A stretch of 9,703 nucleotides of DNA from an uncultured Flavobacteriales bacterium (GTDB taxonomy: Bacteria; Bacteroidota; Bacteroidia; Flavobacteriales; CALTNV01). Below, piece by piece: positions 1 to 9,703 of this stretch (position 1 is its first letter; every line of letters begins with the position of its first letter). Below the pieces are notes generated by a model. It saw only the letters and a list, made by a program, of their open reading frames with translations, did not search any database and was not told the origin of the DNA. The stretch covers positions 1-9,703 of the forward strand of contig CALTNV010000011.1 in assembly GCA_943845485.1 (NCBI GenBank), given 5' to 3'. The translations under genes and the position numbers were made by a program.

Positions 1-113
1 GAATCGTATTTAGTCATCTCAAATTCCCATTCCCAAAACTCTTGAGGCTCTTGAGCAAATATTGAACTGATAATGGAACTCAAAAAGAATAATGTGAGCA
101 GTCTTTTTTTCAT
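1..113 (-). CDS. N-terminal part of a secreted protein (runs off the window)
   Basis: Reading leftward from the ATG at 113-111, an open frame continues to the window edge without a stop and gives about 37 residues. It begins MKKRLLTLFFLSSIISSIFA, a textbook Sec signal peptide: a charged KKR start, a hydrophobic core of about 14 residues, and a small-residue end at FA-Q with likely cleavage before QEP. The mature part seen so far is acidic and aromatic (QEPQEFWEWEFEMTKYD). The function cannot be told from this. The start is only 9 nt after repeat R1, with no obvious Shine-Dalgarno sequence. It is in the same orientation as the glycan operon, but R1 separates them, so co-transcription is uncertain. 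Confidence 0.72.
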   Translation of the reverse strand, partial: MKKRLLTLFFLSSIISSIFAQEPQEFWEWEFEMTKYD

Positions 114-121
114 ATGTATGG

Positions 122-182
122 CAACGTTCTGTGTATGGTGTCGTAGCATCCCGAAGGGTGCTATGCACTATACATATTGTTG
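122..182 (-). repeat. Palindromic attC-like repeat R1 (short form)
   Basis: This is a 61-nt imperfect inverted repeat between the last operon gene and the secreted-protein gene. The plus-strand left arm starts CAACGTTCTGTGTATGGTG and the right arm ends CTATACATATTGTTG. The arms pair along nearly their full length, with a few mismatches and at least two unpaired bases. The apex at 150-158 is CCC GAA GGG, which on the transcribed (minus) strand reads CCCTTCGGG and contains the C(UUCG)G tetraloop. The outer ends match those of R2 and R3 (AACAAY-type end and ACGTTG-type end). No U-tract follows, so it is not a typical intrinsic terminator. The function is unknown. Confidence 0.75.
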
Positions 183-200
183 GGGTGTCGTTGTTTTATT

Positions 201-917
201 TTAAAATTTTAACAACCCATATTTAATAATGCAATATATCGCACGAACACCATCTTTCCAATTAATCTTTTTGCCTTCAGAATAGGTTCTCCCGTAATAA
301 GAAATACCTACTTCATAGATTCTTATATTAGCTATTCTAGAAATTTTTGCTGTTACTTCTGGCTCAAAACCAAATCTTTTTTCATGGAGATTTATATTTT
401 GTATTAATGATGTATCAAACATTTTATAACATGACTCCATATCAGTCAAATTTAAATTTGTGAATGCATTTGACATAAAAGTAAGAAATTTGTTTCCAAT
501 GGAGTGCCAAAAAAATAATACTCTATGTGGATTACTGCCTTTAAATCGAGAACCATAAACTACATCGGCAACCCCTTTTAAAATAGGATTTAATAATATA
601 TTATATTCTTCTGGATCATATTCCAGATCTGCATCTTGTATTATTAAATACTCTCCAATAGCTAACTTAATACCACTATGTATAGCAGCACCTTTGCCTT
701 TGTTTACTTTATGTGATGTAAGTCGAATATTTAACTCTTTGTTATTATCAATATAATTTTTAATAATATTACAAGTGTTATCTGATGATCCGTCATCAAT
801 AACAATAATATCTTTTGTTAAATTACAGAGTAACTTTACCTCCTTTATTTTATCTAACAATAAAGCTATCGTATTACTTTCATTAAAAACAGGTATTATT
901 ATAGATAATGTAGTCAT
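201..917 (-). CDS. GT2 glycosyltransferase, polyprenyl-phosphate sugar synthase (DPM1)-like
   Basis: This 238-residue cytosolic GT-A fold protein probably transfers a sugar from a nucleotide donor to a polyprenyl phosphate. Visible motifs are the N-terminal SIIIPVFNES (5-14), the nucleotide-binding DDGSSD (41-46), NKGKGAAI (72-79), the metal-binding DAD (95-97) within QDADLEYDPEEY, GSRF (122-125), TDMESCYK (158-165) and a C-terminal GRTYSEGKKINWKDG (209-223). All are typical of the DPM1-like GT2 subgroup. There is no C-terminal transmembrane pair, so it is the soluble or peripheral form. It is the last gene of the operon, 11 nt after the previous stop. By family it should make a lipid-linked sugar for one of the GT-C enzymes upstream. 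The sugar cannot be predicted. Confidence 0.9.
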   Translation of the reverse strand: MTTLSIIIPVFNESNTIALLLDKIKEVKLLCNLTKDIIVIDDGSSDNTCNIIKNYIDNNKELNIRLTSHKVNKGKGAAIHSGIKLAIGEYLIIQDADLEYDPEEYNILLNPILKGVADVVYGSRFKGSNPHRVLFFWHSIGNKFLTFMSNAFTNLNLTDMESCYKMFDTSLIQNINLHEKRFGFEPEVTAKISRIANIRIYEVGISYYGRTYSEGKKINWKDGVRAIYCIIKYGLLKF

Positions 918-928
918 TTTATTTATTT

Positions 929-1666
929 TTAAAATCTTTTTGATCTAATGATTTTCCATTTATGCAGACGATATTCAAATGATACCATCATACAACCTAA
1001 ACCATATATAATGCTTCTTTTAAAATTGATAGAAGAAGCTTGTTTAAAATATTTTGTAGGACATGTTATCTCTCCAATTTCATAGCCTTCCATGAATATT
1101 TGCGTTAACATCTGATTGTCAAAAACAAAATCATTAGAATTTATTTCAAAATTGATTTTCTTCAAAACTTCGGAAGAAAAAGCTCTATAGCCTGAATGGT
1201 ATTCTGATAATTTTTGGTTAATTATTATGTTTTGAGCTAATGTCAAAAGACGATTAAAAAAATATTTATATAGAGGCATGCCTCCTTTTAAAGCTCCTTT
1301 TCCTAAAATTCTAGAACCTAATACAACTGGATAAATATCATTAGCAATAATATATGAAATTGATTGAATTAATTTAGGAGTGTATTGATAATCAGGATGG
1401 AGCATTATAACAATGTCTGCATTAAGTTCAAGGGCTTTTTGGTAACATGTTTTTTGATTTGCACCATACCCTAAGTTAGAGGCATGTTTAAAAATATATT
1501 TTAAACCATATGATTTTGCTACTTCAATAGTTTTATCAGAACTACAATCATCTACTAGAATAATATCATCCACTATATCAAAAGGGATTTCATTTAGTGT
1601 GTTTATTAATGTTTTTTCAGCATTATATGCTGGTAAAACAACGATTATCTTTTTATTGTTTATCAT
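929..1666 (-). CDS. GT2 glycosyltransferase with HPDYQY motif
   Basis: This is a GT-A family 2 enzyme of 245 residues from the preferred start. It shows KKIIVVLPAYNAEKTL at the N-terminus, VDDCSSD (38-44), an LGYGANQ segment, HPDYQY (90-95) where most relatives have a DxD motif, LGSR (116-119), and SEYHSGYRAFS (154-164). It most resembles the polyprenyl-phosphate mannose/glucose synthase branch, and no membrane segment is evident. I chose the ATG at 1666 because the family's first strand starts there and it leaves a 10-nt gap after the preceding stop. The ATG at 1702 would add a 12-residue tail (MDHYGHSLNHIY) that lies mostly over the end of the previous gene. The replaced DxD suggests a subfamily with its own metal or donor binding. 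Confidence 0.88.
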   Translation of the reverse strand: MINNKKIIVVLPAYNAEKTLINTLNEIPFDIVDDIILVDDCSSDKTIEVAKSYGLKYIFKHASNLGYGANQKTCYQKALELNADIVIMLHPDYQYTPKLIQSISYIIANDIYPVVLGSRILGKGALKGGMPLYKYFFNRLLTLAQNIIINQKLSEYHSGYRAFSSEVLKKINFEINSNDFVFDNQMLTQIFMEGYEIGEITCPTKYFKQASSINFKRSIIYGLGCMMVSFEYRLHKWKIIRSKRF

Positions 1667-1676
1667 ATAAATGTGA

Positions 1677-3029
1677 TTAAGGGAATGGCCATAATGGTCC
1701 ATGTAATTGATTTACAGAAACTCCTAAATAGACTGAAATACTAATAACAAGAATAATCCCATAAAATATATTCAGAGCAATCATAAATCTACCCAATTGT
1801 TGAGCCAGAGAATTTTGTTTTATTAGACTCCCTAGAGTTATAAGTAATAGGATAATGCCAGGGAGCATAAACATTGATTTCATACTTGAAAAATAAGGAG
1901 ATCGTAATGTTTGTATAAATGGGACCAAAAAATATAAGAATGCTAAAAATAGAGGAACTATTTTATAGGCAATTGTGTGCCAATCTACCTGCAAGTTTAT
2001 TTTTTGATATTGTTTTTTACAAGATAATAAAATAACGATAAAAAATAGCCCCCAAATTAAGCCCAATGAATACGCTATATAACCAAGAGTGGTTGCCCAT
2101 GGAATCTTAGGACTAATAAATCGCCATTCATAGTCATAAAATGTTCTGGCGAACAATTCTGTAAAAAAAGAAGCTGAAGTATAATCAGAAATAAAAGGGT
2201 TTTGATATAATTTAAAAATTCTAAAGGTGAAAAATTCAACCTTTTCTAATGAGCCAGGGAATTGATTTTTCGCATAATCAAAGTAGTGCTGATTACTTAC
2301 TAAAAACTTCCCTGTCTGATTATATTTCCATGCTTCTTCTGATAGGGAGAGTAAAACCCCTAATATTAAAATTGGAATGGCACAGTATAATTTTTTGCGT
2401 TGAGCTTTTCTAAACAATAATAAAAATATTATACCAGGAAATAAAAGGAGTAATAGACCGTGCTGCTTTGTGAGACTACCCAGGATTACAGCTAAAACTA
2501 AAGCACACAACCATCCCAAAAATCTTTTCCCTTTATTTAATGCAGTTACTGTTTCAAGAAACAAGTAGAAAGCAAGTACTGCGAAAAAAACCAACATATA
2601 GTCGTTACCTAACATAGCGGAGGTAAATATATCTCTAGGTAGTACAATGATAAAAGATAGAGTTATAGCGACTGATAGTTTTTGTAGTTTAAATAGCATC
2701 AAAATTTTATACGTAATTAAGAGTAAAAATATTGAAAGCAATGGGTTAATAGCCTGAACCATTTTCCAACAAACTACTTGACTTCCTCCTAACAATTTTG
2801 TTATCTTATAGACTGTAGCGCCAGTGTAATAATATAAGGGCGGCTGATAGCACTCCCAACACTGAAAAGGAGCTGGACGATTAAAGTCTTCTGCATAGAT
2901 GTTTACCACCTCTAAATGGTCATCATATGCGTTGTTAGCTGGGCTTACCCAAAAAACAGTTAATCGCAGAATACCTCCAAGGCAAATTAGTGCAATAAGT
3001 AGATATTTATTTGAATTCTCTTTTGACAT
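1677..3029 (-). CDS. Polytopic GT-C-type glycosyltransferase (ArnT/GT39-like)
   Basis: This is a 450-residue integral membrane protein with roughly nine to eleven hydrophobic segments. After the first membrane helix (about 10-28) there is a periplasmic loop with the acidic motif YDDHLE (35-40) and then CYQPPLYYY (60-68). The same arrangement occurs in ArnT and GT39-type enzymes, where the acidic residue is catalytic and the sugar donor is a polyprenyl-phosphate sugar. GNDYM (141-145) lies before another helix, and SPYFSSMKSMFMLPG (377-391) resembles the late conserved loop of these enzymes. The C-terminus ends soon after the last helix (HGPLWPFP), so there is no large periplasmic domain. It overlaps the preceding gene by 23 nt. 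The acceptor and sugar are unknown. Confidence 0.82.
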   Translation of the reverse strand: MSKENSNKYLLIALICLGGILRLTVFWVSPANNAYDDHLEVVNIYAEDFNRPAPFQCWECYQPPLYYYTGATVYKITKLLGGSQVVCWKMVQAINPLLSIFLLLITYKILMLFKLQKLSVAITLSFIIVLPRDIFTSAMLGNDYMLVFFAVLAFYLFLETVTALNKGKRFLGWLCALVLAVILGSLTKQHGLLLLLFPGIIFLLLFRKAQRKKLYCAIPILILGVLLSLSEEAWKYNQTGKFLVSNQHYFDYAKNQFPGSLEKVEFFTFRIFKLYQNPFISDYTSASFFTELFARTFYDYEWRFISPKIPWATTLGYIAYSLGLIWGLFFIVILLSCKKQYQKINLQVDWHTIAYKIVPLFLAFLYFLVPFIQTLRSPYFSSMKSMFMLPGIILLLITLGSLIKQNSLAQQLGRFMIALNIFYGIILVISISVYLGVSVNQLHGPLWPFP

Positions 3030-4488
3030 ATTTAAATAACATAAAAGCTCCTATCAAGCCGAAAATCAACACTAAAACTGAAAAGACCTTACTAACTAAC
3101 GAAAATTTCCAATGAAAAATTCGAACCCACCAAAAATTAATAGAGTTTTTCTCTATAGATGAACTTATTACCTTAGCATTCGAAGCAGTTCTAATCTCTT
3201 TCTTCCAAGGAGAATTAGGTTGATAGTTATATAACTCACCTAAGTTTTTTGGTAAAATGATTACTAACTGTTTTGCTTGAACTAAATGAGGTTCCTTTTT
3301 TAGACTATAAAGATATTCCATATCCGAAAGACTGTTGTAGGTTATGTAATCATTAAGAACATCTCTTTTATAATTCACTGTAATTAGTTCTACTTGCAAA
3401 ATAAATGCAAGAAGCATTGCAATGAATACCCATTTCTGAGGCTTTACATATATAATGGGTAGATAAAGGAAAGGTATAATAGGCAGTATATAACGAGGAC
3501 CATAAGACCATATACTGCCATGCCAAGCAAAATTCATTGAAAAGATGCCAAGATAAGTTGCGGATATCAAAATAATAGAATAGGATATTAATCTCTGCTT
3601 TTTCCAAAATGTTTTCATTCCCCAAAAAGCAATCACAATAGTTGTGGAGAAAAAAATAAGACCCTTCCCTGGAGAAAATAGAAAGCCAAATAAAGCAATA
3701 GGAATTCGTGATAATGACCAAAAATCAAATTTATCTGAATGAGCTAAAGACCAAGCCAATGAATATCCAGATTCTAAAGGATTTCCAAAACGATAATAAT
3801 TATATAGTAAAACAAATACTACTCCAATAGCAAGAGTTGTTAAAGCTTTTAATCTTTCTTTATTATTACTTTGTATCAGTAAAATAGCAGGAACGGCTAG
3901 AATTGTTGTAGTTCTGAAAACCAACCCCAATGACAACATTAAGCCAGAGTAAAGACCTGAATTTTTTGTATTCTTTTTTAAAGCATAGTAAGTACTTATT
4001 AAAATGAAAAACATTTCAAAATGATGTTCATACGTACTTTGCGCAAAAACGAAAGAATAAGATGTTATTCCAAAAAATGCACTTGCTAAATATGCTTGCT
4101 TTTTAGAAGCTCCAATAAGTAGAACAATCTTAAATAGCAGAAAAGCACAAAGAGCATGTACCATGTAATTTAGAAACGACACAAAATATGCTGAATAATA
4201 GTAGGCATTAACTTCATCTGAACAAAGAAGTTTAGCAATAAAATATATTGGAATAAAAACAATCGTTTGTCCAGGGTTATAAACCATATACCTCTGTCCA
4301 TTTTGATTTATTGCTATATTCCCATGCATGTCCTCTCCAACATCATCCGCTAAACCAAACTGTCCTTCTTGCACTATAATTCTAGTTTGACTCAATCTTA
4401 AGTGTGTATCTGGGTTTTCTATCTGACCAGATGAAAAAAGAATGCTTAGAATAATCCCAAAAAATAAATATATATATAATTGTCGCAT
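3007..4488 (-). CDS. Polytopic GT-C-type membrane glycosyltransferase
   Basis: This protein has 493 residues and about ten hydrophobic segments. A first helix (about 3-19) is followed by the acidic loop ENPDTHLRLSQ (24-34), where D27 is the likely catalytic acid, and by VYNPGQTIVFIPIY (69-82). Later come FGNPLESGYSL (234-244), FSPGKGLIFF (271-280) and YGPRYILPIIPF (329-340). I recognise this combination from bacterial membrane mannosyltransferase-like proteins annotated as GT39 or GT-C. A soluble stretch (about 375-450) precedes a last helix near 465-486 and a basic tail. I chose the ATG at 4488, one base after the preceding stop. The ATG at 4515 would add MWEYFYTNN, read over the end of the upstream gene, before the first helix. 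The substrate is not predictable. Confidence 0.8.
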   Translation of the reverse strand: MRQLYIYLFFGIILSILFSSGQIENPDTHLRLSQTRIIVQEGQFGLADDVGEDMHGNIAINQNGQRYMVYNPGQTIVFIPIYFIAKLLCSDEVNAYYYSAYFVSFLNYMVHALCAFLLFKIVLLIGASKKQAYLASAFFGITSYSFVFAQSTYEHHFEMFFILISTYYALKKNTKNSGLYSGLMLSLGLVFRTTTILAVPAILLIQSNNKERLKALTTLAIGVVFVLLYNYYRFGNPLESGYSLAWSLAHSDKFDFWSLSRIPIALFGFLFSPGKGLIFFSTTIVIAFWGMKTFWKKQRLISYSIILISATYLGIFSMNFAWHGSIWSYGPRYILPIIPFLYLPIIYVKPQKWVFIAMLLAFILQVELITVNYKRDVLNDYITYNSLSDMEYLYSLKKEPHLVQAKQLVIILPKNLGELYNYQPNSPWKKEIRTASNAKVISSSIEKNSINFWWVRIFHWKFSLVSKVFSVLVLIFGLIGAFMLFKYVKREFK

Positions 4489-4489
4489 A

Positions 4490-5950
4490 TTATTTGTATA
4501 AAAATATTCCCACAAAAGGAATAAAATCTAATTTTTCTTGTTGTTTATGATGGAATTTGTTTTCACGGAATGCTACTCCTAGCATCTCGTCTATATAAAC
4601 TGCGGAGTCGCCTAAATTATTAGCAGCCTCGTTGGCAGGAATTAATTTAAAATTGTTTTGCAAATAATATGCGATTCCAACTATTAGAGGTCCTTTTGGT
4701 TCAAAAACTAGTATCCTGGTCTTCGAATCTACTTGATTATCAACAAAGCTAGCTACTTCTCTAAACATTTGCTTTGGGGTTCTATCTAGTCTATATAATT
4801 GAAATAGAATAGTACTTGTCAGGACAGCATAAATTACAGGGATTGACAAAGAAAAGATTTTGTTTGGGAATCTATCTATCATTTTATACAAGCCCCAATA
4901 TATAAATATCAGTACAAAGATATAGTATCTTGGTACTAAGATTGAGTGATGTCCAACCAGTTGATCAAATACATATATTTGGATACCATAGATTAAAATA
5001 GAACTTAACAAAATCAATGTGAATTTCCATTCTTTTAACAAAAGAAAAGCTATTGCCAGTAAAATTATCACAATGGTAATACCCCATTCATAAAATAATG
5101 GATCAATCATTGGTGATATCAAAAGGTGTAAAATTCCATCCAAGTATCCGATTGTTGATTCCCCAAAAGAAATAATACCATCAGTCCAATGTATATCATG
5201 GAAGTTTAATTGTTTTCTTATAGCAATGCCCCATGGTAGAAAGAACAATACGGCTAAACCATGATTCAATATTGATTTTTTAAATCCGTATTTAAGTAAC
5301 TCAAAAAAGGCTAAAGAGGAAAGGAAAAATAACCCATAATAGTGGGTATACAATAAAGCTATAGATGATAAACAAAAATATAGAAATGCAGAAGACTTGA
5401 TTTTTCTATGCTCTTGATAATCTAACCAATACCGAAAACTTAATGTGGCAAATAATAGGGCTAAAGCATACATCCTTGCCTCAGTGAAAAAGTAAAACAA
5501 AAATGGATTAAACATCAGCATAGCAAGAATTAGCCAGGGAGTAGACTTTCGTTCTGATCTGTGCCAAAAAAGATTAAATAGTATTAGAAAAACAAATAAT
5601 CCACTACACAAAGAAAAGCTCCTTAGTGCAATTTCTGAAGTTCCAAAAACAGAAGACCAAAGCTTTAATATAATAAAATATAAAGGCGGATGGCCCTCAT
5701 GTAAAATCTGAGTCGAAAAATTAGAATAGAAATTATCTTCTGCCAATAAGTGTTTGAAGTAATTGACATCATAAGGAATATCTTGCTCTGACCACACACT
5801 ACCTTCAAAGTCATATACACTTACACCTTTTAAGAAAGTTAAAGTATATATCTCATCATGCCAAAAACCTTGCTGTGCACTGTGACTTATGCCTAAGAAG
5901 AGGTAAAGCAATAGTACTAATGCAATTGTGGATTTATTAAAATGATTCAT
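4490..5950 (-). CDS. Polytopic GT39/PMT-like glycosyltransferase
   Basis: This 486-residue integral membrane protein has the clearest GT-C signature in the operon. Helix 1 (about 8-24) is followed at once by FWHDE (29-33), the DE-type catalytic loop of GT39/ArnT enzymes. Then come HEGHPPLYF (84-92), TEARMYALAL (156-165), YTHYYG (201-206), and late VPRYYIF (339-345). About ten hydrophobic helices can be traced, and the last roughly 95 residues form a soluble domain. By family it should take a sugar from a polyprenyl-phosphate carrier and transfer it on the periplasmic face to a glycan or lipid. Its ATG overlaps the stop of the preceding GT2 (ATGA, 4 nt), which fits a GT2/GT-C functional pair. 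Confidence 0.88.
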   Translation of the reverse strand: MNHFNKSTIALVLLLYLFLGISHSAQQGFWHDEIYTLTFLKGVSVYDFEGSVWSEQDIPYDVNYFKHLLAEDNFYSNFSTQILHEGHPPLYFIILKLWSSVFGTSEIALRSFSLCSGLFVFLILFNLFWHRSERKSTPWLILAMLMFNPFLFYFFTEARMYALALLFATLSFRYWLDYQEHRKIKSSAFLYFCLSSIALLYTHYYGLFFLSSLAFFELLKYGFKKSILNHGLAVLFFLPWGIAIRKQLNFHDIHWTDGIISFGESTIGYLDGILHLLISPMIDPLFYEWGITIVIILLAIAFLLLKEWKFTLILLSSILIYGIQIYVFDQLVGHHSILVPRYYIFVLIFIYWGLYKMIDRFPNKIFSLSIPVIYAVLTSTILFQLYRLDRTPKQMFREVASFVDNQVDSKTRILVFEPKGPLIVGIAYYLQNNFKLIPANEAANNLGDSAVYIDEMLGVAFRENKFHHKQQEKLDFIPFVGIFLYK

Positions 5951-6645
5951 TTTTTTAGTGATTTTAGGAGCGTCATCATATAAAGTTTGAAGTTCTTAGT
6001 CAATTTTAGTTTTGAAACACCTGCTTTTCGTTGTGTCCACGAAATAGGAATGATAGCAATTTTCTGTTTTCTATTGAAGGCTTTTAAACTCATTTCTAAC
6101 CCAATACTAAACCCGGTGGAATTTAGAGGCGATATTGCATCTATTGAACGCCTATGGTAAATCTTAAAAATATTTGTAAAGTCATTATACTTATTCCCAG
6201 AAAGTATTCGTACCCATGTATTAAAAACCCTATTTAAAATTAACTTTATTATTGGATAATCCTTTACTCTTCCCCCCTTTATAAATCTTGATCCAAAAAC
6301 ACAATCATACCCCATTTTACTGATCTTTTTATATGATAATAGGATGTCTTCTGGAGAATCAGAACCATCTGCCATACACAAAGCTACAATATCTCCTTGC
6401 CATTTAGATAAACCATAACGGATTGCATTACCAACACCACTATCCCATTCATTAGATGTATATTTAAGATTAGAATACTTTGAAGCTAAGTTTGCTAACA
6501 ACTCTATTGTTCCATCATTAGAATGGTCGTTAATAATCAGAATGGAAAACGGAATTTTTACATTCAGCTTTTTTTGAAGATTTTCTATTGTTTTAGTCAA
6601 AGTAAGCTCTTCATTTTTAGCCGGTATAATAATGCATAGCTCCAT
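5947..6645 (-). CDS. GT2 glycosyltransferase with ADGSD motif
   Basis: This is a compact 232-residue GT-A enzyme. Motifs are LCIIIPAKNEELTL (3-16), NDHSNDGT (39-46), MADGSDSPED (91-100) in place of the usual DAD motif, FGSRF (117-121), NDFTNIFKIY (154-163), and QRKAGVSKLKL (205-215), the R..G.SK segment of polyprenyl-phosphate mannosyltransferase-like GT2s. No C-terminal membrane helices are present. It starts at a TAATG junction with the preceding gene (1-nt overlap) and ends in an ATGA overlap with the next, so it is probably translationally coupled on both sides. The likely role is charging a polyprenyl phosphate for the adjacent GT39-like enzyme. The sugar is unknown. Confidence 0.9.
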   Translation of the reverse strand: MELCIIIPAKNEELTLTKTIENLQKKLNVKIPFSILIINDHSNDGTIELLANLASKYSNLKYTSNEWDSGVGNAIRYGLSKWQGDIVALCMADGSDSPEDILLSYKKISKMGYDCVFGSRFIKGGRVKDYPIIKLILNRVFNTWVRILSGNKYNDFTNIFKIYHRRSIDAISPLNSTGFSIGLEMSLKAFNRKQKIAIIPISWTQRKAGVSKLKLTKNFKLYMMTLLKSLKK

Positions 6646-7649
6646 TATCTATATAAATTTACATTTTCTTTTTGCCAGATACTAAATTCCTTTTTTGGTT
6701 GCCCATGTTTATCCAAAAGTCCAATTTTATCCGACCAAGATTTATCCTGTGCAGCATCAATTATAGACCCCCAAATAATAAACTTCAAATCCAACTCACT
6801 GACTTTTTGAAATATATTCTTAACATACACTTTCCGCTGATCTTTATTATACAATTTGCTGCTTACAGCAGTTTCAGAGATACCGATGGGAATAGAATAA
6901 GCCTTACTTAAACTATCAAGATATTTTGTAGAAAATAACACATCGAGTTGTTTTCTTTCTGATACCATATTGGGATAAGTAGAGACTCCTAAATAATCAA
7001 TATCTCCAAGCATATTGTCCAAAGTTGTAAATGTCTGCGATTGCTCCCATTCATTATGATGGCCATAAAGTAATTCAAGTTGATATGATAGTCCTACTTT
7101 TAATTTCGGCTTCAATTGTTTAATCTCGTGCTTTAGTTCTCTGAATATGGAAGCAAAAGCCCTAAAGCCACTAGAAGAGGTCAAAGCGTAGTAATTTACC
7201 TCAACTCCTAGATTCATATAGTCAGGATTATAAGTTTCCACTAATTTCAACATATCTTTCTTAAATAAACTAGAAGTTTTACTATCTGCAAAGCTCCATC
7301 CGCCTTTAGTTCCTGTTCGGTCAACTTCTTGCCAATCAATAGCAATCATAAAACTCTTACCATGATCCTTTGCCAATGAAAAATACCAAGCGGTATTATT
7401 AAAAAAGCTACTGTCATTAGGGCTCCATGAGATCTGAGCTACAATAATTGACGAATTCTCCAAGGTATGCTCAATAGCACTTTTTATAGCCCTATCCTCA
7501 TGTCTACCATCCACCCAAAGAAGTGTTCCACCTTCTTTAAAGTACCAATTGCCTGATACAGAACAAGATAAAACGATACTACTCAGAAAACATATAATTA
7601 AATAGGCTCGCTTATTGGATATTTTGAATAGTCTGTTTTGTATTTGCAT
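6645..7649 (-). CDS. Exported TIM-barrel glycoside-hydrolase-like protein (probable lipoprotein)
   Basis: This is a 334-residue protein. The N-terminus carries K/R residues, a hydrophobic run (about 15-28) and Cys29 in IVLSCSVS, an imperfect lipobox, so it is probably an exported lipoprotein. The rest reads like a clan GH-A (beta/alpha)8 barrel: ISWSPND near strand 2, MIAIDWQEVD (101-110), MNLGVEVNYY (145-154) with E150 where the acid/base would lie, YLGVSTYPN (219-227), IPIGISETAVS (253-263) with E259 as candidate nucleophile, and IIWGS (291-295) at strand 8. GH53-like endo-galactanases have a similar layout, but the usual Asn before the acid/base Glu is Val here, so activity is uncertain. 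It overlaps the epimerase gene by 38 nt, and no later start would keep the signal sequence. It may trim or bind the glycan made by the operon. Confidence 0.75.
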   Translation of the reverse strand: MQIQNRLFKISNKRAYLIICFLSSIVLSCSVSGNWYFKEGGTLLWVDGRHEDRAIKSAIEHTLENSSIIVAQISWSPNDSSFFNNTAWYFSLAKDHGKSFMIAIDWQEVDRTGTKGGWSFADSKTSSLFKKDMLKLVETYNPDYMNLGVEVNYYALTSSSGFRAFASIFRELKHEIKQLKPKLKVGLSYQLELLYGHHNEWEQSQTFTTLDNMLGDIDYLGVSTYPNMVSERKQLDVLFSTKYLDSLSKAYSIPIGISETAVSSKLYNKDQRKVYVKNIFQKVSELDLKFIIWGSIIDAAQDKSWSDKIGLLDKHGQPKKEFSIWQKENVNLYR

Positions 7650-8682
7650 AAATATCAGTTATTATCTCCTCTAAATCAATAGTAATAGACCAGTTGGGAT
7701 ATTGAGAAATAAATTTACTATTATCTGTAATCCACCAAATATGATCGCCTACTCTAGGGCTATCAATAAGTTTAAAGTCAACCTTTTTATCCAATACATT
7801 ATCAACAAGTTCTATTGCTTCTATTATAGAGCAACTATTAGCTCTACCACCTCCTAAATTATATACCTCTCCTGCTTTGGGGCTTAAATAAAACTCATAG
7901 AATGCTCGAACTAGATCATGCGCATGAATGTTATCTCTAACTTGTTTCCCTTTATATCCAAAGATATTATATGTAGTATTACACTTAACTAGATAAGAAA
8001 GGAATCCATGTAACTCAACCCCCGAATGTGGACCTCCTGTGATACAGTTTGGTCGAAAAATTCCAATGTTTAAACCATAATACCTGGCATACTCTTGACA
8101 CATTACATCTGATGATAACTTACTAACACCATAAGGAGAATGGAGAGACTGATCCACAAACATATCTTCTCTAAAACCGGTATAGTAAGTATGGTCTTTA
8201 GGGAGCTCATAACGACTTCCTATTTCCTCATACCCAAAGTCATTCAATGCATTTCCATATACTTTACTTGAAGAACATTGAATAAAAACTGCTTTATGGC
8301 ATTGACATCTCATCTCTTCCAGAAGAATTACAGAGCCCAAAGCATTAATTTCAAAATCCTCAAAAGGGAATTTCCCAGACCAATCATGACTAGGCTGAGC
8401 AGCGGCATTCACAATTAGTTTAATATCATCTCCATATTTTGTGAAAAGTCGCCTAATACGTTCTCGATCTCGAATATCAATTGGATAGTGCTTATAATTT
8501 TCAACATCTTGCTCTAGCTTATCGATGTTTTTCGCAACGGACCCACCTTTACCAAAAAAATAGCCTCTAGAATCATTATCAATTCCAATGATCAAATCAA
8601 AATGCTGTGAAAGAAATTTCACAGATTCTACACCAACTAGTCCTCCTGATCCTGTAATTATTGCAATTTTTGTTTCCTTCAT
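7612..8682 (-). CDS. NAD-dependent sugar-nucleotide epimerase, CDP-paratose 2-epimerase-like
   Basis: This 356-residue extended-SDR enzyme is cytosolic. The Rossmann motif is TGSGGLVG (10-17), with D35 in GIDND positioned to bind the NAD ribose. It also has NAAAQPSHDW (92-101), SSSKVYG (137-143), the catalytic pair Y184 and K188 in SPYGVSK, LHGFLSYLVKC (224-234), FGYKGKQVRDNIHAHDLV (241-258), YNLGGGR (274-280) and GDHIWWITD (312-320). These longer segments are highly characteristic of CDP-paratose 2-epimerase (CDP-tyvelose epimerase, RfbE-like), which inverts C2 of CDP-paratose. Relatives often sit in gene sets that lack CDP-paratose synthesis, as here, so the true substrate may differ. It is the first gene of the operon, with its start 50 nt past repeat R2. 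Confidence 0.9.
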   Translation of the reverse strand: MKETKIAIITGSGGLVGVESVKFLSQHFDLIIGIDNDSRGYFFGKGGSVAKNIDKLEQDVENYKHYPIDIRDRERIRRLFTKYGDDIKLIVNAAAQPSHDWSGKFPFEDFEINALGSVILLEEMRCQCHKAVFIQCSSSKVYGNALNDFGYEEIGSRYELPKDHTYYTGFREDMFVDQSLHSPYGVSKLSSDVMCQEYARYYGLNIGIFRPNCITGGPHSGVELHGFLSYLVKCNTTYNIFGYKGKQVRDNIHAHDLVRAFYEFYLSPKAGEVYNLGGGRANSCSIIEAIELVDNVLDKKVDFKLIDSPRVGDHIWWITDNSKFISQYPNWSITIDLEEIITDIYANTKQTIQNIQ

Positions 8683-8731
8683 TTATTATAAATTTATCTT
8701 TTTATTCATCTTACTTCACTAAAATGCACCC

Positions 8732-8856
8732 CAACGGTTTTGTGCGATGATTTGTTGCGTAAAAATAGCAAAAAGAAACATAAAACTAAAGACTTTTACG
8801 TTTGCGAGGTTTTTCGCAAGAAAAACCAATTAAGCAATAAATTATGCACGTTGTTG
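8732..8856 (-). repeat. Palindromic attC-like repeat R2 (long form)
   Basis: This is a 125-nt imperfect palindrome between the orphan membrane-protein gene and the operon. The outer ends are CAACGG (8732) and CGTTGTTG (to 8856). The inner arms GTGCGATGATTTGTTGC (8742-8758) and GCAATAAATTATGCAC (8834-8849) pair with one bulged base and two G-T-type mismatches. The apical part holds two sub-hairpins: CGTAAAA (8758-8764) with TTTTACG (8794-8800), and GGTTTTTC (8808-8815) with GAAAAACC (8820-8827) around a GCAA loop. Its coding-strand ends, ACAACGTGCATAAT and CGCACAAAACCGTTG, align with those of R3. No target-site duplication is seen. Confidence 0.8.
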
Positions 8857-8915
8857 TAATTTAGTTGTGAAACATTTGAGTAAGTAGTTTTTAATTCATT
8901 TTTCAAAGTTTTCAT
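8796..8915 (-). CDS. Small ORF of 39 codons reading into repeat R2 (doubtful)
   Basis: An ATG at 8915-8913 opens a frame of 39 codons (starting MKTLKNELKTTYSNVSQLNY) that ends at a TAA at 8798-8796, inside R2. A purine-rich AAGGAAA lies about 11 nt upstream and is a possible weak ribosome site. The second half is simply the repeat translated (NNVHNLLLNWFFLRKTSQT). No domain or signal is recognisable. It may be a real short peptide, the relic of a gene that once ended in the repeat, or chance. The first 18 nt up to its sixth codon duplicate part of the neighbouring gene, which favours a relic. Confidence 0.22.
   Translation of the reverse strand: MKTLKNELKTTYSNVSQLNYNNVHNLLLNWFFLRKTSQT
8897..8914. 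repeat. 18-bp direct repeat, copy A (intergenic)
   Basis: The sequence CATTTTTCAAAGTTTTCA occurs here just past the stop of the orphan membrane-protein gene and again, identical, 131 bp away within that gene. On the coding strand this copy can be read Y-E-N-F-E-K-stop in one frame, close to the Y-F-E-N-F-E-K-W of the gene. It may be a scar of a lost related gene end or a small duplication. Confidence 0.6.
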
Positions 8916-8936
8916 ATTTCATTAATTTCCTTTTTC

Positions 8937-9443
8937 CTAAATATTTAAGCTCCATATGAGAGAAAGAAAAACTAAAATAATAAATATAAAAGACAAAAAA
9001 ACATTCACTCTTTTTCTAGATAAAGACCATTTTTCAAAGTTTTCAAAATAATCTAAGTATGTATCGTTTTTGTAAACTAAAAGATTACTAACCATATAAG
9101 CAATAATTCCTAAAATTATTAAGTAGTAATTCTCAAAATCTAAATTCAATTGAAACAGTTTATTCGTAAGAATGCAAAAAGTCAAAAGAATTACTAATAT
9201 TATTCCGAAAAATGCTCCAAAAACAAACCTTTGACTAAAACCATATTCTTTATTTAAAAAAAAGTCATTATAATATTCTAAAGGATTTTCAATTCCATAT
9301 TTATTTTTCATTCTTCTTTTTATAAATGGTATTTTATATAAAAGTAAAAAAATGTTTATTTTATTGAAAGCAAAATGCATTGTCCTTTCAGTAAGATAAA
9401 GACAAAAATAAAGTGCATTTATTTTAGATTTTAGCAATTCCAT
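8937..9443 (-). CDS. Uncharacterised membrane protein, three predicted membrane segments
   Basis: This protein of 168 residues belongs to no family I can name. The first 70 residues are basic and partly amphipathic and contain KNKYGIENPLEYYNDFFLNKEYGFS (46-70). Hydrophobic segments follow at about 72-93, 106-124 and 147-166. Between the last two is a polar loop YKNDTYLDYFENFEKWSLSRKR (124-145). The C-terminus ends right after the last helix. I have an unverified recollection of Bacteroidota orphan proteins with a similar pattern: a YFxxFEK-type loop, a basic stretch, then a final helix. It lies between two repeats of the same family (R3 upstream, R2 downstream) and shares no junction with the glycan operon, so it looks like a stand-alone cassette gene. 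The start at 9443 is the first ATG after R3; Met22 is an alternative. Confidence 0.75.
   Translation of the reverse strand: MELLKSKINALYFCLYLTERTMHFAFNKINIFLLLYKIPFIKRRMKNKYGIENPLEYYNDFFLNKEYGFSQRFVFGAFFGIILVILLTFCILTNKLFQLNLDFENYYLIILGIIAYMVSNLLVYKNDTYLDYFENFEKWSLSRKRVNVFLSFIFIILVFLSLIWSLNI
9028..9045. repeat. 18-bp direct repeat, copy B (inside the membrane-protein gene)
   Basis: This is an identical copy of CATTTTTCAAAGTTTTCA at 8897-8914. Here it encodes part of the loop F-E-N-F-E-K-W of the membrane protein, before its last helix. An exact 18-bp match this close is hard to explain by chance, even in AT-rich DNA. Confidence 0.6.
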
Positions 9444-9509
9444 TTAAGTTAAAATTCTTTTCAAATAATTTTTTCTTTCAGAAGTTAGATTTTCCTGAGC
9501 AATTAATTA

Positions 9510-9633
9510 CAACGTTTTTGTATAGGCTTTGTTGTGTTGTTTAAGCAATGAATTTACTAAATTAAACACGAACGGTGAAATTCCGAAGGAATTTCCCAAG
9601 TGAGCTAAAACTAGCAATAAAGTTTATACGTTG
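9510..9633 (-). repeat. Palindromic attC-like repeat R3 (long form)
   Basis: This is a 124-nt imperfect palindrome upstream of the orphan membrane-protein gene. The outer ends are CAACG (9510) and CGTTG (to 9633). The arms GTATAGGCTTTGTTGTG and CTAGCAATAAAGTTTATAC pair imperfectly and extend inward to TTTAAGC/GCTAAAA. The apical part again has two small inverted repeats: AATTTACTAAATT (9551-9563), and GAAATTCC (9577-9584) with GGAATTTC (9588-9595) around GAA. On the transcribed strand the latter reads CCTTCGG, a C(UUCG)G tetraloop as in R1. Ends and arm sequences align with R2 (coding strand ACAACAAAGCC...ACAAAAACGTTG against GCAACAAATC...ACAAAACCGTTG). Confidence 0.8.
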
Positions 9634-9703
9634 TTAGCTTTTAGTGCTTTTTTGTCAGCGTAACAATTCATTCCAAATTTCTGTTTTCCGAGTTTGAGTA
9701 AAT
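9624..9703 (-). CDS. C-terminal end of an unidentified gene reading into R3
   Basis: From the window edge a minus-strand frame is open for 25 codons and stops at TAA (9626-9624), just inside R3. It reads LLKLGKQKFGMNC then YADKKALKANNV. Its last residues (A-N-N-V) are encoded by the conserved end of the repeat, so the gene would use the repeat to supply its stop codon. A second frame ending ...TEIWNELLR at a TGA near 9657 is also open from the edge, so the choice of frame is not secure. The function cannot be assigned from this fragment. Confidence 0.4.
   Translation of the reverse strand, partial: LLKLGKQKFGMNCYADKKALKANNV

Follow-up and report, generated by a model that had tools for sequence, protein, structure and literature searches.

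Vibrio-type superintegrons carry their integrase gene, intI, pointing in the opposite direction to the cassette array. A defining trait of an integron is the IntI-specific domain of its integrase, which is also a criterion of the IntegronFinder program, according to the excerpted text of PMC9668308. In Bacteroidetes proper, IntegronFinder 2.0 is described in the excerpt of PMC9024848 as having reported only In0 elements and one complete integron, and the excerpt of PMC10013915 mentions a Tenacibaculum genome, not examined here, that was run through IntegronFinder with no integrons reported. The Polaribacter phage P12002L has been published as carrying ordinary-integron attC sites, one of which (P12002L_attC2, not attC1) recombined with attI1 through IntI1 (PMC9892861, as excerpted); the cited literature further includes PMC8618304 and PMC8946536, both as excerpts. 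In searches of the open PubMed Central literature, judged by listings and excerpts and with subscription journals and preprints outside the scope, we recognised no account of flavobacterial superintegrons or of an integron recombinase without the IntI-specific domain.

Here we describe a 9,703-nucleotide stretch of DNA from an uncultured Flavobacteriales bacterium (GenBank assembly GCA_943845485.1, contig CALTNV010000011.1, positions 1 to 9,703), analysed whole and referred to below as the window, with three palindromes, R1, R2 and R3, set between genes that a list of open reading frames (ORFs) places almost entirely on the minus strand. Comparison with related sequences makes it very probable that these palindromes are attC-like recombination sites at the 3' ends of mobile cassettes, belonging to an integron-like platform of the Flavobacteriaceae. 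Along the minus strand the order is R3, a 168-aa ORF, R2, eight tightly packed genes, R1 and the start of a further gene, the last recognised by eye. A sequence-only reading of the window, made without database searches, had reported the three palindromes, each 3' of a coding unit and co-oriented with the genes, and had likened the layout to an attC array. All three exist: a covariance model built from 22 aligned copies, with R2 and R3 included and R1 excluded, puts all of them on the minus strand (R1 at 122-181, R2 at 8732-8855, R3 at 9510-9635), and the sequence and ORF list bear out their position and orientation relative to the genes. The likening to an attC array draws strong support from orientation, closure, an adjacent recombinase with an attI-like site, and cassettes exchanged between species and genera. 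The sites, cassettes and cassette arms of the window are as follows.

9510..9635, minus strand: R3, attC-like site, with AAC at 9633-9635 and GTT at 9511-9513; covariance model E-value 1.5e-24, R3 being a training sequence
9505..9510, minus strand: start arm of cassette A (GTAATT, following the R3 GTT); perfect reverse complement of 8856-8861
8736..9513, minus strand: cassette A, 778 bp, delimited by the GTT triplets of R3 and R2, with matching arms
8856..8861, minus strand: end arm of cassette A (AATTAC, preceding the R2 AAC); complements the start arm
8732..8855, minus strand: R2, attC-like site, with AAC at 8853-8855 and GTT at 8733-8735; covariance model E-value 2.6e-19, R2 being a training sequence
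8727..8732, minus strand: start arm of cassette B (GGGGTG, following the R2 GTT); perfect reverse complement of 182-187
126..8735, minus strand: apparent cassette B, 8,610 bp, eight genes that overlap or lie 11 bp apart; arms match
182..187, minus strand: end arm of cassette B (CACCCC, preceding the R1 AAC); complements the start arm
122..181, minus strand: R1, short attC-like site, with AAC at 179-181 and GTT at 123-125; E-value 0.007 with the model built without R1

The strongest feature of the system, absent from the sequence-only reading, is that flanks match between consecutive sites. From R3 to R2, GTAATT follows the first GTT and its exact reverse complement precedes the next AAC, and from R2 to R1 the same is true of GGGGTG and the six bases ahead of the R1 AAC, so that each unit has its own matching ends, as a circularised cassette should. 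Across public loci, 217 of 276 neighbouring site pairs agree at no fewer than 6 of 7 positions, as counted on 384 anchored sites among 449 profile hits, with 65 unanchored hits left out. At the same threshold, three shuffles gave 10, 10 and 7 matches among 276 pairs, pairs taken across an intervening site gave 11 of 204, and the two flanks of a single site gave 17 of 384; a run of at least six matching bases after GTT, seen at both window junctions, arose in 11 of 828 shuffled pairs. Ten further stretches, some of them overlapping earlier loci, close in 78 of 109 cases against a shuffled mean of 3.1, and many printed pairs show one mismatch after the seventh base, beyond which pairing resumes. 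Paired arms offer a simple test for cassette borders. Since the palindromes are hairpins, are common and lie 3' of genes, they might instead be static repeats, either terminators or elements like repetitive extragenic palindromes (REP) spreading behind genes without a recombinase; however, neighbouring sites match each other in their flanks, unlike the two flanks of one site, and identical cassettes occur in different surroundings with borders at GTT, which leaves that explanation with hardly any credibility.

R2 and R3 are clearly related, and R1 is a short variant with the same ends and outer stem. Folded as single sequences, the three palindromes are only moderately stable (z = -1.94, -1.51 and -2.43), weak evidence alone; the weight of the observation comes from their relatives. 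R3 matches two Tenacibaculum plasmids, with 82% identity over 125 bp to a plasmid site. A 22-base pattern was present in at least 119 stretches of species genomes and in 10 of viral contigs; by title, the stretches are mostly from Flavobacteriaceae, and about ten from other phyla look like chance matches. Ten of 131 loci, judged to be such matches, were left out of the covariance-model searches, which in the other 121 found 267 and 239 sites at E <= 0.05. Sites were present in at least 84 of 100 sampled Flavobacteriaceae genomes (E <= 0.001) and in at least 30 of 198 genomes sampled across the phylum (E <= 0.0001); site counts per genome are minima, with at most 150, 35 or 17 candidates scored in each and the matches listed in part. 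Related sites also occur in flavobacterial phages and viral contigs: in Polaribacter phages Danklef_1 to Danklef_5, P12002S and P12002L, in Tenacibaculum phage JQ, and at loci L122-L131.

Twelve base pairs are predicted from the 22-copy alignment, three of them with pair-preserving changes on both sides, and the sites form the imperfect hairpin, with an unpaired spacer and a paired inner box, that is expected of attC. The bottom strand gives the more stable fold in 287 of 297 sites, and the difference between bottom and top strands averages 2.92 kcal/mol in 100 sites vs 1.21 in dinucleotide shuffles. Joining the ends of the window cassettes as in a circle strengthens the bottom-strand fold, relative to the array state, from -19.0 to -23.6 kcal/mol for cassette A and from -13.3 to -21.4 kcal/mol for cassette B. 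The palindromes are real, and they end the cassettes of an integron-like system.

The sequence-only reading had proposed a covariance-model search of relatives, with few copies or random orientation counting against it; what emerged was many copies, in a single orientation in 81 of 82 multi-hit loci, with 1 of 449 profile hits opposing its locus; counted on anchored hits alone, which excludes an opposing hit in L053, the figure is 72 of 72. The arrays thus run in one direction with each cassette ending in a site, as in integrons. Of 216 closed cassettes, 169 have their longest ORF on the same strand as the site, 5 have it on the opposite strand and 42 have no ORF of 50 aa or more; the median length is 699 bp in one set of closed cassettes and 703 bp in another. 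As integron cassettes would be, they are exchanged as units with borders at GTT: in a set of 40 homologous cassette pairs that also counts pairs within one locus, at least one neighbour is non-homologous for 36, and a homologous neighbour is seen for 2. A 709-bp cassette is 97.3% identical between Algibacter and Polaribacter loci, a 560-bp cassette 95.9% identical between two Polaribacter species, and a 510-bp stretch 92.0% identical between Polaribacter and Mesoflavibacter. Shared identity starts at CGTT, with 28-34% identity (gapless) upstream of the preceding site, and cassettes that share 92-97% identity between species or genera sit beside unrelated neighbours. Of 20 pairs whose cassette ends are similar, 16 show the site travelling with the cassette (identity >=0.92).

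For the enzyme behind such exchange, the 14 genomes underlying the site-bearing loci and 14 control genomes were searched with the integron-integrase model TIGR02249, which found some match in all 14 of each set. In 11 of the 14, the recombinase gene is open over 382-408 residues and its match to the model comes in two pieces with the intervening stretch missing; stops interrupt the gene of Lacinutrix neustonica, and in the remaining two genomes the best matches look like another type. The catalytic residues R, K, H, R, H and Y are invariant in the 11 aligned proteins, and PF00589 is found in the three that were scanned. A tyrosine recombinase upstream of the arrays and on the same strand is the kind of co-occurring enzyme that the sequence-only reading had asked after: nine of the 11 genes are followed, on their own contig and strand, by sites at distances up to about 7 kb, and the remaining two are located near contig ends; among 25 recombinase loci from the 100-genome sample, a site falls within 1.5 kb of the gene in 13, always downstream and on its strand. 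In Polaribacter sp. BM10 the gene lies at 1,753.5-1,754.7 kb and the sites, among the matches listed, at 1,755.8-1,812.9 kb; in one metagenome-assembled genome the minus strand carries both the sites, at 541-582.5 kb, and the gene, at about 584 kb. The Lacinutrix neustonica sites, at about 836-1,001 kb, come after the interrupted gene at 834.6-835.4 kb and make up an array of about 164 kb. The longest array observed comes after this stop-interrupted recombinase gene (L145, G002:C1:834586-835378), and it may be frozen because the gene ahead of it carries stops. This recombinase type (E < 1e-130, the next matches being 1e-113 or weaker) was found in 25 of the 100 Flavobacteriaceae genomes and in 5 of the 198 genomes of the phylum sample, with sites in 22 of those 25 and in all five of the latter (G001 is in both samples).

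A second recombinase group was observed in G046, G063, G020, G098, G101 and G231, at E-values of 1e-112 to 1e-90 against the alignment of the first group. Its members, some of them stop-interrupted, are likewise found upstream of sites that share their contig and strand, about 0.5-13 kb away.

Layout and cassette logic are the same as in integrons, and three scanned recombinase proteins match TIGR02249 at 203-213 bits, which could make the system a canonical integron or a cluster of attC sites lacking integron integrase (CALIN), with divergent ordinary attC sites served by a true IntI. An attC of P12002L is recombined by IntI1 in the excerpted account of PMC9892861, and P12002L has sites of the present model, of which the tested one may be one. 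We nevertheless consider a canonical assignment unlikely. None of the 14 genomes reaches the TIGR02249 cut-off of 265 bits; the IntI-specific domain near patch III is missing from the recombinase (16 profile positions vs 59 residues in VchIntI4), which has about 95 extra N-terminal residues; and the consensus R' (GTTRRRY) and R'' (RYYYAAC) of attC occur at only 19 and 29 of 384 site ends, respectively, with a purine as the fourth base in 374 of 384 (GTT being fixed by construction). The sequence-only reading had noted that this core is only partly matched and had supposed a separate family in Bacteroidota, and both points agree with what the site ends and the recombinase show.

Directly behind the recombinase gene lies a candidate attI. 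The motif TATAACNAGTT occurs within 150 bp behind the stop codon in 25 of 32 recombinase loci, and five more have near variants by eye; over 2.83 million bases, all loci and strands included, there are 60 occurrences, the recombinase cases among them. A comparison by eye of the post-stop bases with the first detected site's arm, in 10 loci whose stop was parsed, shows agreement at 6 or more of 7 positions in 8 and at 5 of 7 in the other two. The post-stop bases thus look as an attI should.

From these elements a mechanism can be proposed. A tyrosine recombinase of about 390 residues, upstream of and co-oriented with the array, would link the GTT of a cassette circle to the attI-like sequence TATAAC-N-AGTT directly behind its own stop codon, and the ends of other cassettes could serve as alternative targets. 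Each cassette would bring two private, mutually complementary arms of about 7 nt, one following GTT at the start and one ahead of AAC at the end; separate in the array, they would pair in the circle and complete the hairpin there. The substrate is presumably the folded single strand, and the extra N-terminal domain is suggested to assist in reading folded DNA.

Several observations weigh against this account. The window holds three sites and, by the ORF list, no recombinase. At least 62 of the 75 genomes without the first recombinase type have sites, and three of its 25 carriers show no sites among the matches listed; because of the former, many arrays may no longer have the gene, may be located away from it or may depend on the second group. 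The attI-like motif was not found within 150 bp of the stop at L138 and L142, L053 and L093 (the latter by the covariance model) each contain a site in the opposite direction, and in phages P12002L and P12002S the sites are oriented opposite to the annotated genes. The bottom strand is also the better fold in 77 of 100 shuffled sites, so the strand bias is partly a matter of composition. Closure fails in 59 of 276 neighbouring pairs; in the ten further stretches, many failures are long gaps possibly containing a missed site. Finally, four of the 20 pairs with similar cassette ends have site identities of 0.61-0.80, near the background median of 0.72.

These last four pairs (L016/L100, L076/L100, L007/L114 and L025/L039) combine similar ends with different attC-like sites; in L016/L100 the divergence starts directly after AACA, and the site itself may have been swapped in such pairs. 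A further observation on closure concerns one 20-kb stretch of Polaribacter sp. BM10 (L182, G001:C1:1750000-1769999), where six cassettes of 495-496 bp with identical arms close poorly; two compared copies are 100% identical and a third 86%.

Recombinase and transposase genes abut some of the sites. On Tenacibaculum finnmarkense plasmids, gene pairs encoding a tyrosine recombinase and an IS91-family transposase abut the AAC side of sites (L001, 668-2652 and 3892-5915), and one annotated tyrosine recombinase abuts the AAC side of an array site at L002 (5007-5915). The two pairs and the single recombinase would be expected if the sites were the ends of IS91-like rolling-circle elements with a tyrosine recombinase. 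The identical stretch that these loci share stops at the AAC, however, so that the element appears to have been inserted alongside the site; arrays close without an IS91-like element in most inspected loci, not all loci having been searched for one, and the ORF list of the window contains no IS91 transposase. We regard an IS91-like origin of the sites as very improbable.

Under the reading of the palindromes as cassette ends, the window divides into cassette A, of ordinary size, and the far larger cassette B, with the following genes.

8937..9443, minus strand: 168-aa ORF of cassette A, function unassigned
7612..8682, minus strand: NAD-dependent epimerase/dehydratase family gene (Pfam PF01370)
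6645..7649, minus strand: 334-aa ORF, zero matches in a Pfam scan
5947..6645, minus strand: glycosyltransferase family 2 (Pfam PF00535)
4490..5950, minus strand: 486-aa ORF, membrane-like by eye, zero matches in a Pfam scan
3007..4515, minus strand: 502-aa ORF, membrane-like by eye, zero matches in a Pfam scan
1677..3029, minus strand: 450-aa ORF, membrane-like by eye, zero matches in a Pfam scan
929..1702, minus strand: glycosyltransferase family 2 (Pfam PF00535)
201..917, minus strand: glycosyltransferase family 2 (Pfam PF00535)

The cassette A protein has zero matches in a Pfam scan and 22 relatives, itself included, mostly metagenomic and none bearing a functional name. Cassette B appears to carry a whole eight-gene operon for sugar polymer synthesis. 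That it is one large cassette, which would move as a unit, is its simplest and a probable reading, because its genes leave no room for hidden sites. At 8,610 bp it is far above the others, the longest other closed cassette measuring 4,775 bp and the medians being as given above; R1 is an unusually short site, and the agreement of the cassette B arms is 6 of 7. These features would suit a variant in which the sites are cassette ends as proposed and the operon entered a small cassette by another route. Both arms match, on the other hand, the covariance model scan gave no further minus-strand site in the window below E 0.91, and no trace of a smaller cassette is left among the overlapping genes, all of which makes such an entry improbable. 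A search for the operon elsewhere, run without a positive control, gave no match.

Among described systems, the window by itself resembles a CALIN in being an array stretch without a recombinase, and differs from one in its sites, which mostly lack the GTTRRRY of ordinary attC. The CALIN of Polaribacter phage P12002L (PMC9892861, as excerpted) is alike to the extent that the searched phage region has sites of this model (E-values 4.8e-10 and 1.6e-7). The complete integron of Salinibacter ruber M1 and the Bacteroidetes In0 elements (excerpt of PMC9024848) belong to the same phylum; compared by description, not by sequence, they differ in having been found by IntegronFinder, which, in the excerpt of PMC9668308, requires the IntI-specific domain. 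XerA and the archaeal Xer recombinases differ from the present recombinase in its extra N-terminal domain and array-linked position. If the proposed reading is true, a major marine family holds a large reservoir of mobile cassettes, with sites in most of its sampled genomes and one array of superintegron length, and the IntI-specific domain, described as necessary for integron recombination in the excerpted literature, is dispensable. With Vibrio-type superintegrons the system shares a recombinase gene, an attI-like site, a long one-direction array, mostly promoterless-looking single-gene cassettes and hairpin sites at their 3' ends; unlike them, it has a recombinase without the IntI-specific domain and with the added N-terminal residues, a recombinase gene co-oriented with the array, and cassette-specific arms in place of GTTRRRY. 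It works like an integron and is not filed as a canonical one, because the IntI-specific domain is missing and GTTRRRY is rare. We see an even chance that it represents a second way to build an integron, combining a recombinase free of the IntI-specific domain, perhaps with a HARP/XPB-like N-terminal domain as its reader of folded DNA, with superintegron-sized arrays, private arms of about 7 nt and an 8.6-kb operon cassette.

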